A stretch of DNA of 64,000 nt from Thiomicrorhabdus cannonii (lineage in GTDB: Bacteria; Pseudomonadota; Gammaproteobacteria; Thiomicrospirales; Thiomicrospiraceae). A program made the translations under genes and the position numbers. Location of the stretch: the NCBI RefSeq assembly GCF_013391695.1, contig NZ_JACBGH010000003.1:124001-188000 (forward strand), written 5' to 3'. The notes beneath the pieces are model-generated. The model was not told the DNA's origin, did no database searches, and saw nothing but the letters and a program-made list of their open reading frames with translations. Below are positions 48,043 to 51,362 of the stretch, one piece after another. Numbering within the stretch: position 1 is the stretch's first letter; each line of letters begins with the position of its first letter.

Positions 48043-48918
48043 TTAAACCGTAGCCGGTTGGGAGGCTTGCAAGGTGGCGTGGTCGAGCTTAACCCAATGG
48101 ATCAGTTGAATCTTCCCGTCGAAGTCTTCCGCCAACGCGGTGCAGGATTCCACCCAGTCGCCGCAGTTGTAGTAGCTGATGGGCTGTTCGCCGCCGATCT
48201 CGCGGATTTCGGCGTGGTGGATATGGCCGCAGACCACGCCGTCCATGCCTTTGTGTTTGGCCTCTTTGGCCACCGCTTCCTCAAAATCGGAGATGAAATT
48301 GACGGCGCGTTTGACGCGGTTTTTGAGGTAGGCGGACAGCGACCAGTAGCCGAATCCCAAGCGGTGGCGGAGCTGGTTGTACCAGCGGTTGACGTGCAGC
48401 ATGGTTTCGTAGAGGAAATCGCCAAACAGCGCCATCCAGCGGTGGCACTGCACCACGCCGTCGAACTGGTCGCCGTGAATGCACCACAGTTTGCGGCCGT
48501 CGGCGGTGGTATGCACGTATTCGTCCAGCAGGTGGATATTGCCGAATTGCACGCCGGAATAGCGCCGCAGCATGTCGTCGTGGTTGCCGGTGATATAGAT
48601 GACTTTGGTGCCGCGTTTGGCGCGGGTGAGGATGCGGCGGATTACATTGGTGTGGGCCTGCGGCCAGTAGGTGCGTTTGCGCATGCGCCAGCCGTCGATA
48701 ATGTCGCCGACCAGAATCAGCGTCTCGCAATCGTGCTGTTTGAGGAAGTGGCTCACGAAATCCGCCTTGCAACCTTTGGAGCCGAGATGCAGGTCGGAAA
48801 TCCACAGGGTGCGGTAGCGTTTGCCTTCAAACGGGGGGTCGGATGGGGCGGGTGACGCGCAGTGCAAGCCCTCTGCCAGCTCCATCCAGTCGGGCAGTTG
48901 CAGATTGTTGGGTTTCAT
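48043..48918 (-). CDS. PlcP/LpxH2-like metallophosphoesterase
   Basis: The 291-residue enzyme has the calcineurin-type metal motifs in order: SDLHLGS (near 41), LVGDIIDGW, ITGNHDD, CIHGDQFD and GHIHHAE. Such proteins are usually annotated UDP-2,3-diacylglucosamine diphosphatase. The subgroup next to btaA genes includes PlcP, a phospholipase C that splits phospholipids under phosphate limitation to supply diacylglycerol. The btaA-like gene two genes away supports that reading. I start at ATG 48918 because AAGGAG precedes it; the frame is open further to 49032. No Pho box was identified. Confidence 0.78.
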   Translation of the reverse strand: MKPNNLQLPDWMELAEGLHCASPAPSDPPFEGKRYRTLWISDLHLGSKGCKADFVSHFLKQHDCETLILVGDIIDGWRMRKRTYWPQAHTNVIRRILTRAKRGTKVIYITGNHDDMLRRYSGVQFGNIHLLDEYVHTTADGRKLWCIHGDQFDGVVQCHRWMALFGDFLYETMLHVNRWYNQLRHRLGFGYWSLSAYLKNRVKRAVNFISDFEEAVAKEAKHKGMDGVVCGHIHHAEIREIGGEQPISYYNCGDWVESCTALAEDFDGKIQLIHWVKLDHATLQASQPATV

Positions 48919-48959
48919 GGCGACTCCTTGGTGATTTGCCCCGTGTGATGCATGGGAAG

Positions 48960-50084
48960 TTAAATTTCGTGTTTTTGCAGAAAGGCCGGGCCAAAACGGT
49001 TGAGCAAGCGGGCGAAGCCGCTTTGCAGCCAACGCTGTTGCCAGGGCAGGTGGTTGACATAGAGTGCGGTGTATTCGATGACCGGTACGCCGCCGCGTTG
49101 GCGCTTGAAATGCCCCGCACCGGAACTCAAATTGAGCGTTTGGCCGCGTTCATGGGTGACTTTGAGCAGCTGCGCCATCAATAGCCGGTAGAGGCCGAGC
49201 GATTGCGGCAGGCTGGTGTCGTAACCGACAATCGGCGCGGTGATCAGCTCGTTCTGGGTGAACAGGCCGATGCTGGCGACGATACGCCCGCTGATGTCGC
49301 GGAAGCTGAAGAACTCGACCAGCCGATGGCTGTGCAGAAACTCGAAATAGGCTGCCGTGAACTGCGGGTTATAGGCGGAATGCTTGTCGATAAACAGCTG
49401 TTTGAATACGCTTTCAATCGCCTTGAAATCTTCGCCCCGGTGCTCTTGCGGCGTCACCAGCTGCAAGCTGGTGTTTTTGAGCAGGCGTTGGTCGTTTTTG
49501 ACATTGTTTTTGCGCCACCAGTCGCCGTGGGCTTCGCCTTGTTTGGGAAACAGATAGACCTGACGGGCGGGCAGCATCAGCCAACCCTTTTGCTGCAGGC
49601 GCGCCATCAGGTCGGCGTTGCTGTAGGGGTTGAGCGAACGGATGCTGATGCTGTGCTGCGGATTGGCGTGCGACAGTTTGTTGGTGAAATAGTCAATGGT
49701 ATCGTTCTGCCAATCGGGCACGATGTTGGTGGAAAACAGCCAGTTGTTCAAGGAAACGGTCTGGTTGATCTGTGCCCAGCGCAGGGCGATATCCGCCATG
49801 CCGATTACCGCACGCAAGGCGCGACGCAGCAAGGCGTTTTTAATCAATCCCAGTTCGTCGCGTGCATAACGCACATAAGCGGTGTAGGGCGAACAGACAT
49901 AGCTGTTGTCGTATTCGCGTTCGTTGCGGGTGATGGGTACGCTTTTATTTTCGAGCACAATGCAGTCCAGTTCGGTCTGCACATTGGCGATGGCGCGTTG
50001 TTCGCTCGAACGCTGCATCGCCTCCAGTCCCATAACGAAGCGGTGGGTGGTGGACCAGAGATTTTCCGGCAGCAGGCGGTCCAC
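48960..50084 (-). CDS. GNAT/FemAB-like acyltransferase in the lipid cluster
   Basis: The 374-residue protein has no signal or membrane helix. The C-terminal half (about 215-345) reads like a GNAT/FemAB-type acyltransferase fold: FFSFRDISGRIVASIGLFTQ is a typical beta4-beta5 region, and SLPQSLGLYRLLMAQLLKVT looks like the acyl-CoA helix. The N-terminal half is not recognised. It lies three bases after the btaA-like gene and 41 bases before the phosphoesterase, so all three are probably one operon. BtaB, the usual partner that trimethylates the betaine head group, is missing here; this protein occupies its place. Confidence 0.55.
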   Translation of the reverse strand: MDRLLPENLWSTTHRFVMGLEAMQRSSEQRAIANVQTELDCIVLENKSVPITRNEREYDNSYVCSPYTAYVRYARDELGLIKNALLRRALRAVIGMADIALRWAQINQTVSLNNWLFSTNIVPDWQNDTIDYFTNKLSHANPQHSISIRSLNPYSNADLMARLQQKGWLMLPARQVYLFPKQGEAHGDWWRKNNVKNDQRLLKNTSLQLVTPQEHRGEDFKAIESVFKQLFIDKHSAYNPQFTAAYFEFLHSHRLVEFFSFRDISGRIVASIGLFTQNELITAPIVGYDTSLPQSLGLYRLLMAQLLKVTHERGQTLNLSSGAGHFKRQRGGVPVIEYTALYVNHLPWQQRWLQSGFARLLNRFGPAFLQKHEI

Positions 50085-50087
50085 GGT

Positions 50088-51362
50088 TTATTCCGTTGCG
50101 CTCGAGCGGCGCTGGTAGACAAAGACGCCGCCATAGATGGCCGAACGGTCGCGGCGCGTCCAGTCACGGTTGGCATCGGGATCCGTCTGCCAAGGTTGCA
50201 ATAGTTCCTTGGGCAGTTTTAATTCCAACGGCGAGGTGGTGCCGGCCGTACGGAACACCACGCGAGCATTCGGCATGGCGGTGCGGTTGACCTGAATCCA
50301 TAGGTCGGTGAGCTGTTGCTCGTCCATCCAGTCCTGCGCATCCAAGAACAGATAGGCATTGAGACTGTTGGCCGGCATCTGCTTGAGGCGCTCGGTCATG
50401 GATTCGTGGTGAACCGTCACTTTCTGCGAATGCTGTTGCAGCGTGTCGAAATGCTCGGCTTGCAGATAACGCGGCAGGGCCCGGCGGTGGTCAAGGTCGT
50501 ATTCGCGCTGATAGGCCTGCCAGGCAAAGTAGTTGTCTTGGAGCGGGGTGTCGCAGGCCAGGCGGCGCGCACGTTCTTTGAGCAGTTCATGCATGCCTTG
50601 CGCGGTTTGCTGGGATTCGCTGTGCATCTCGGCGTACTGCGCCGGCGGAATCCCCAGGCTGTAGAGCACCACCGCACGGTTGCAAAGGAATTTCAGCAGG
50701 CGGGTGTCGAACACCGGCGCGACGTGCTGTGCAAACAGGCGCTGCTGTTCTTCCGGCGTGCGCGCCTGCATGACCTGGGAGATGTCGTAGCCCAGACGCT
50801 TACTGACCCAGTGAATCAAGCCGATGAAATTGCCCAGCAGGCCGAAACGGTAAAAGCCTGCGCTGAACATGGCAATGCGCGGCTTGCGGCTCAGGCCTTC
50901 GCGGCCTTCCCAGTATTCGCGGGTTTTGGCATCCAGATGGGGCTGAATGTAGGCGTGGTAGCGATCCAGGTTCTTGGGCAGATTGGCTTTGCCGAAGAAG
51001 TCAAAAAACGCCGCTTCGTCCGGCAGGTGCTGGATGGCCGCCAGTTTGAGTTTGAGCAGGGCGATATGCGCCTCGTTGAGGTCCACCACGGTAATGGAGG
51101 CCGGTTGTTCGGTCAGGTAGTTGAGCACATTGCAGCCGCCGGATGAGATTGTGAAGATATGCGAATCGGCATTGAGTTGCAGCGCGGCGATGTCGACTTC
51201 CGGGTCTTCCCAAATCTGCGGATAGACCAGTCGGTCAAACCAGGCGGTAAACAGGCGGTCCATGAGCCCCTTGCGGCTGAACCAGCGGGTATTGTTGACG
51301 GCGCTTTCCAGCAGTTGTTTGGTATTGCTTGCAGTGTCGATTGAGGTCTGGCTGATGCTCAT
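50088..51362 (-). CDS. btaA: BtaA-like 3-amino-3-carboxypropyltransferase (DUF3419)
   Basis: BtaA moves the 3-amino-3-carboxypropyl group of S-adenosylmethionine to diacylglycerol, the first step of betaine lipid (DGTS) synthesis. The 424-residue protein shows the DUF3419 features: YPQIWEDPEVDIAAL, the SAM-binding ISSGGCNVLNYL, VVDLNEAHIALLKLKL, and in the C-terminus FLDAQDWMDEQQLTDLW. It is first in a leftward operon with a GNAT-like protein and a PlcP-like phosphoesterase, matching phosphate-sparing lipid exchange. The missing btaB leaves the end product open. Confidence 0.82.
   Translation of the reverse strand: MSISQTSIDTASNTKQLLESAVNNTRWFSRKGLMDRLFTAWFDRLVYPQIWEDPEVDIAALQLNADSHIFTISSGGCNVLNYLTEQPASITVVDLNEAHIALLKLKLAAIQHLPDEAAFFDFFGKANLPKNLDRYHAYIQPHLDAKTREYWEGREGLSRKPRIAMFSAGFYRFGLLGNFIGLIHWVSKRLGYDISQVMQARTPEEQQRLFAQHVAPVFDTRLLKFLCNRAVVLYSLGIPPAQYAEMHSESQQTAQGMHELLKERARRLACDTPLQDNYFAWQAYQREYDLDHRRALPRYLQAEHFDTLQQHSQKVTVHHESMTERLKQMPANSLNAYLFLDAQDWMDEQQLTDLWIQVNRTAMPNARVVFRTAGTTSPLELKLPKELLQPWQTDPDANRDWTRRDRSAIYGGVFVYQRRSSATE

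Follow-up and report, generated by a model that had tools for sequence, protein, structure and literature searches.

We analysed a 64,000-nucleotide stretch of the Thiomicrorhabdus cannonii genome (contig NZ_JACBGH010000003.1, positions 124,001 to 188,000; hereafter the window) and found that its btaA gene belongs to a conserved variant of the betaine lipid locus. In this variant btaA is paired with a gene for a tandem-GNAT protein, and the pairing excludes btaB. The activities of BtaA and BtaB in the pathway to diacylglyceryl-N,N,N-trimethylhomoserine (DGTS) are given for Rhodobacter sphaeroides and Sinorhizobium meliloti in the accessible text of PMC3972451. The fixed pairing over many genomes, together with the exclusion of btaB, makes a lipid other than DGTS the natural reading.

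Within the family of the window's organism, the GNAT protein is encoded in 22 of 58 relatives and a PF11899 (BtaA family) protein in 23, which are the same 22 plus G037. The G037 protein is distant (20% identity) and, with it excepted, all 22 genomes that have a true BtaA also have the GNAT protein. Co-occurrence with btaA, which the preliminary description had proposed as a check, is thus complete in the family. We then classified PF11899 loci in a class sample of 369 genomes (31 with a match) by the genes within 1.5 kb flanks. Eighteen of the 21 strong loci (320 bits or more) adjoin btaB, three adjoin the GNAT gene (the window genome G000, G026, and G093, whose locus is truncated where its contig stops); no strong locus adjoins both. 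Seven weaker loci (~200-247 bits) have neither gene within that distance, and the weakest matches (L162, L163, and places without a locus) fall outside the classification. The GNAT profile matches 3 of the 369 genomes, the three with btaA-GNAT.

On GTDB contigs, 158 stretches encode a relative of the GNAT protein, of which 80 were kept for context analysis. The gene follows btaA in 35 of these and lies in a cluster with KASIII and ATP-grasp genes in 44; the remaining locus (L064) shows neither context. A wider comparison of synteny in 33 btaA-GNAT loci found the GNAT gene directly after btaA in every case and the phosphoesterase gene in 17, while the next most widespread genuine neighbours, Thiomicrorhabdus-type genes, reach 11. 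Among the hosts are species of Thiomicrorhabdus, Hydrogenovibrio, Undibacterium, and Vogesella: Thiomicrorhabdus chilensis and T. arctica have all three genes, and Undibacterium pigrum and Vogesella indigofera have btaA-GNAT. Chance proximity was ruled out by the 22/22 pairing and by the occurrence of loci in both beta- and gammaproteobacteria. The nearest relative of the window's GNAT protein comes from a Thiotrichales metagenome-assembled genome (MAG; 91% identity), followed by other Thiomicrorhabdus species (61-65%). The L064 gene (5908-7113), on a MAG contig labelled Synechococcaceae, encodes a protein 55% identical to the window's and sits after an efflux-adaptor-like gene.

BtaB is missing from the operon, as the preliminary description had noticed, and a profile search of the whole genome, the check that the description had proposed, uncovered none elsewhere. 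The profile (14 rows) was tested on 13 btaAB genomes, 11 of them row donors, and scored 198-304 bits in all 13; the two non-donor genomes gave 228 and 198 bits. The best match in the window genome, one of seven weak methyltransferase matches, scores 45.1 bits and is partial (positions 58-181 of 238), and the best scores of btaA-negative relatives are no lower (G035, 53.1 bits; G036, 48.9 bits). Across 27 searched genomes of the family, best matches were ~53 bits or less and partial. No match was found at E <= 1e-20 in 22 further btaA-GNAT genomes, for which the separate search of the 13 btaAB genomes serves as the positive control. The earlier proposal that a GNAT/FemAB-like protein takes the place of BtaB therefore agrees with a GNAT gene directly after btaA and no btaB in operon or genome.

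The BtaA of the window is 41-44% identical to rhizobial BtaAs, compared with ~20-25% for a distant PF11899 subfamily, which rules out its being a distant DUF3419 protein. In both rhizobial regions opened (2/2), a class I methyltransferase gene lies directly downstream of btaA. Thirty-eight positions are conserved both in 37 GNAT-linked and in 19 BtaB-linked BtaAs, and the window protein keeps all of them; the single systematic difference between the two sets is G75 in the former versus A in the latter. A PDB sequence search with BtaA returned no matches. Members of the distant PF11899 (DUF3419) subfamily occur in gammaproteobacteria (L046, L156-L161) with neither btaB nor the GNAT gene within 1.5 kb, and one of them (L160) forms part of an open frame 1185 codons long that may represent a fusion. 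Separately, the btaA of S. meliloti Ak57 pSymB (L056:5001-6199) is unannotated and matches in two frames, reflecting a frameshift or sequencing error.

With seven distant sequences as the root, a tree of 63 PF11899 proteins recovers the 37 GNAT-linked BtaAs as one clade (SH-aLRT support 99). This clade is nested in a group (support 98) with five BtaB-linked BtaAs, and the 14 other BtaB-linked sequences fall outside, an inner placing that comes from a quick tree search with long outgroup branches. Given this nesting, linkage to BtaB is probably older, and BtaB was probably replaced once, by the GNAT protein. In the GNAT tree, a branch with support 91 has the ATP-grasp-linked rows on one side and the BtaA-linked rows on the other, with L064 as the sole exception needed. 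Two btaA-negative Thiomicrorhabdus genomes (L169/L182 and L175) lack the trio and have the flanking exonuclease and glycerate kinase genes side by side, separated by 318 and 148 bp, and a third (G020) has only plcP of the trio at that site. These sites indicate that btaA and the GNAT gene come or go together. In G020 (L181, 777-5972), the retained plcP lies beside genes that, judged by eye, resemble those for sugar-glycerate synthesis or breakdown.

The preliminary description placed btaA-, GNAT-, and PlcP-like genes, all leftward, at 48043-51362, where we find three minus-strand open reading frames (Table 1; the PF13480 cut-off is 22 bits). The spacing between btaA and the GNAT gene is 3 nt. 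A likely terminator separates the glycerate kinase gene from btaA, so the operon probably starts at btaA. For the phosphoesterase, a longer TTG-start frame would overlap the end of the GNAT gene, and we use the ATG at 48918.

Table 1. Features of the btaA-GNAT-plcP locus (window coordinates)
Feature	Position	Strand	Basis
btaA (PF11899/DUF3419; homologue of S-adenosylmethionine (SAM):diacylglycerol 3-amino-3-carboxypropyltransferase; 424 aa)	50088..51362	-	PF11899 E 1.2e-105
Tandem-GNAT gene, FemX/MprF-like, in the place of btaB (374 aa)	48960..50084	-	PF13480 24.8 bits
PlcP-like metallophosphoesterase (291 aa)	48043..48918	-	PF00149; ATG start, AAGGAG upstream
Codons of invariant Phe326-Lys327 of the GNAT protein	49104..49109	-	F and K in 58/58 aligned relatives
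Pho-box-like site CTGTCAC-AAAA-CCGTTAT, upstream of btaA	51480..51497	-	12/14 consensus positions
Inverted repeat, likely terminator, between glycerate kinase gene and btaA	51511..51544	-	read by eye

An AlphaFold2 model of the GNAT protein (58 rows; predicted local distance difference score 93.3, predicted template-modelling score 0.90) predicts a double-GNAT fold of the FemX/MprF kind. The top Foldseek matches are the aminoacyl-tRNA-dependent Sbb17/Sba18, then a protein of unknown function and the MprF/A-PGS/L-PGS domains. In VIA-align comparisons the model matches FemX-Wv (4ii9) with Z 16.4 and a root-mean-square deviation of 4.1 over 276 residues (residues 4-360), Sbb17 with Z 16.2, and MprF synthase domains with Z 13-15. 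GNATs that depend on coenzyme A (CoA) have a pyrophosphate loop motif, [R/Q]xxGx[G/A], between strand 4 and helix 3. The corresponding loop contains this motif in none of the 58 relatives, even when relaxed to [RQK]xxGx[GAS], and ends in an invariant Tyr299. According to the accessible text of PMC12945691, FemX-Wv uses Lys305 as its catalytic residue, and the pair Phe328-Lys329 is important in DhpH-C. Two features thus lean toward a tRNA donor, the invariance of Phe326-Lys327 and the lack of a canonical CoA loop, and the protein is more likely an aminoacyl-tRNA-dependent transferase than a fatty-acyl transferase.

Six FemX-Wv alignments have an end offset of 22 or 23 residues (model position 357 pairs with chain position 335 in one case), which would place K327 at FemX 304-305; the match to Lys305 uses these end offsets only and assumes that the last 30 residues are free of gaps. 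Several observations weigh against the assignment to aminoacyl-tRNA-dependent transferases. Tandem GNATs that use CoA score little below FemX (VipF 14.8, MshD 13.1, NMT 12.4), so the choice between tRNA and CoA cannot be made from the fold alone. PF13480 is the sole widely repeated Pfam match (40 of the 58 members), and no member matches the FemAB (PF02388) or DUF2156 models at E <= 0.1. No link to FemAB turned up at the sequence level. Finally, the family also serves the KASIII/ATP-grasp cluster, which has no BtaA, and so is not lipid-specific. A fold can be common to proteins without any match in sequence. A scan of 200 genomes from the phylum found FemAB in 2, and one such protein, when searched against the PDB, gave a weak match to FemX (6snr, E 0.022); PDB searches with the GNAT profiles gave no meaningful match. 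Membrane-seeking helices specific to the BtaA-linked proteins were considered and rejected, as hydrophobic moment and charge are not usefully different from those of ATP-grasp-linked GNATs.

Upstream of btaA we searched for the Pho-box consensus, CTGTCAT-N4-CTGTCAT with T or C as the last base, in 300 bp from 34 sequences, four of them unplaceable. A site with at least 11 of 14 positions is present in 28 of the 30 scanned regions, which are related sequences (two rows are from one MAG) and do not represent 28 independent events. The same threshold is reached by 136 of 5369 random segments (2.5%) and by 9 of 174 regions upstream of other long open reading frames (5.2%). Sites occur in both beta- and gammaproteobacterial loci, and one GNAT locus (L147) scores 10. 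The btaAB loci were a poor positive control: 5 of 19 (L137-L146, L148-L155, L055) could be placed by start motif, and two of these five reach 11/14. Control of btaAB and PlcP by PhoB in S. meliloti is described in the accessible text of PMC3972451, and the upstream sites suggest that PhoB may also control the btaA-GNAT operon.

The phosphoesterase was also considered as LpxH and ruled out, since the window genome encodes its own LpxH elsewhere (260 bits). Among the 22 btaA-GNAT genomes of the family, its gene comes next with the same orientation in 13, is adjacent but opposed in seven, and is not found within 1.5 kb in two. In the class sample, a gene of this phosphoesterase family also comes after btaB at 5 of the 18 btaAB loci (1.5 kb flanks). 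We thus regard the window protein as PlcP-like, that is, a calcineurin-like enzyme distinct from LpxH and linked to genes for phosphorus-free lipids, with phospholipid cleavage as its predicted activity.

Somewhat short of even confidence, we favour the reading that btaA-GNAT(-plcP) is a lipid-remodelling operon for phosphate starvation. At low phosphate, PhoB would switch the operon on and PlcP would cleave phospholipids to diacylglycerol. BtaA, as judged from its family, would then move the 3-amino-3-carboxypropyl group of SAM onto diacylglycerol to give diacylglyceryl-homoserine (DGHS), which would carry a carboxylate and a free alpha-amine, the group that BtaB would trimethylate. In place of that trimethylation, the tandem-GNAT protein would make an amide on the DGHS amine. 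The donor would most likely be an aminoacyl-tRNA, as for FemX and MprF, whichever amino acid it carries, and the product would be a phosphorus-free aminoacyl-homoserine glycerolipid.

The preliminary description supposed that the head group may be N-acylated to give an unusual lipid. A lipid other than DGTS is indeed favoured by the replacement of BtaB, but acylation in the fatty-acyl sense is less favoured than transfer from aminoacyl-tRNA, given the fold, the Phe-Lys pair, and the absence of the CoA loop. In the fatty-acyl version, the GNAT protein would take an acetyl or fatty acyl group from acyl-ACP (the acyl carrier protein thioester) or acyl-CoA and attach it to DGHS, giving N-acyl-DGHS by a logic like that of the OlsB-made aminolipids. 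This draws on the same BtaB replacement and co-occurrence as the aminoacyl-tRNA reading, and on the near-FemX scores of the acyl-CoA-using VipF, MshD, and NMT; moreover, known aminolipids are made by GNAT-type N-acyltransferases (accessible text of PMC11631085). However, the canonical CoA loop is missing in 58/58 relatives, the best structural matches are users of aminoacyl-tRNA, and none of the 58 members matches PF13444 (OlsB-type), and we consider N-acyl-DGHS unlikely.

That the organism makes ordinary DGTS, with an unrecognised N-methyltransferase encoded elsewhere and another role for the GNAT protein, seems quite improbable. SAM methyltransferases are numerous, a non-homologous one would escape the BtaB profile, and seven weak matches exist in the window genome, but the best of them is partial and does not exceed the scores of btaA-negative relatives. 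Ordinary DGTS would also leave unexplained why, throughout the GNAT-linked clade, the neighbour of btaA is the GNAT gene and never btaB. We give still little credence to DGHS with a free amine as the end lipid, in which case the GNAT protein would act on some other molecule of the stress response, such as a lysolipid or peptide; we judge this very improbable. The family's presence beside ATP-grasp/KASIII genes implies an acceptor that is not always a lipid, and L064 (1 of 80 loci) has the GNAT gene with no btaA in the 5.9 kb upstream. Yet the GNAT gene follows btaA directly in 33/33 loci, where apart from plcP no other gene is as widely conserved, and in G020 both are absent together although plcP remains.

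The second context of the GNAT family deserves separate description. These sister proteins are ~33-41% identical to the BtaA-linked GNAT and are encoded with a KASIII-like protein, a 3-beta-hydroxysteroid dehydrogenase-like reductase, a metallo-beta-lactamase-fold protein, an AMP-ligase-like protein ("F390 synthetase-related"), an ATP-grasp protein, and often a Rieske protein. Examples of this widespread biosynthetic cluster, for which we found no name, are L051:3535-10101, L052:3642-10122, and L053:4850-12166, and its hosts include Pseudomonas, Mesorhizobium, Shinella, Shewanella, and Paenibacillus. In the Shewanella clusters L076, L082, and L119, the Rieske gene has one or two additional GNAT paralogues downstream of it. 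On a Deinococcus plasmid (L054:7769-10017), an ATP-grasp-like gene annotated as hypothetical and a GNAT gene stand side by side, the smallest unit seen and possibly the minimal unit of this other pathway. ATP-grasp proteins are typically amide-forming ligases, and the GNAT protein may thus act on a molecule with an amino-acid part in both contexts.

Compared with the BtaA/BtaB pathway to DGTS, the window locus shares a BtaA with the same conserved residues, Pho-box-like control sequences, and a PlcP-like partner, and differs in lacking BtaB in both operon and genome and in having a tandem-GNAT gene instead. In the plcP-btaA-btaB "type 1" clusters of marine bacteria (PMC4796936), plcP likewise adjoins btaA and putative Pho boxes are present; type 1 includes btaB, and btaA without btaB is not described in the accessible text of that paper. 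With FemABX, the MprF synthase domains, and Sbb17/DhpH-C, the GNAT protein shares a predicted double-GNAT fold over nearly its full length, and its Phe-Lys pair may fall at the expected place. It differs from them in having no FemAB or DUF2156 sequence match and in its proposed acceptor, the amine of a phosphorus-free glycerolipid, whereas MprF modifies phosphatidylglycerol and includes a membrane flippase. OlsB-type N-acyltransferases (PF13444) also combine a GNAT fold, a phosphorus-free amino-acid lipid, and phosphate starvation, but the window protein is a tandem GNAT of PF13480 whose partner is BtaA and not OlsA. In a literature search made largely without subscription papers and preprints, we found no description of a btaA-GNAT operon and no paper joining BtaA with GNAT, lipid, phosphate, and homoserine; a term search of PMC10608990 found no description of Thiomicrorhabdus lipids.

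The gene btaA is commonly taken as a marker for DGTS. Here, btaB has been swapped for another enzyme in a well-defined BtaA clade, and btaA alone can thus mispredict the lipid in genomes and metagenomes. A bolder claim, which we regard as doubtful, is that aminoacyl-diacylglyceryl-homoserine is a new class of phosphorus-free glycerolipid, produced by a tRNA-dependent transferase that took the place of BtaB a single time and now serves phosphate-starved sulfur oxidisers and freshwater betaproteobacteria. If true, tRNA-dependent lipid aminoacylation would cover the betaine-lipid pathway as well as phosphatidylglycerol. An aminoacyl or acyl homoserine lipid, if that is the product, would be a new answer to phosphate limitation that joins betaine lipids with tRNA-dependent lipid modification. 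This sulfur oxidiser and its relatives may thus possess a phosphorus-free membrane lipid of an undescribed kind.

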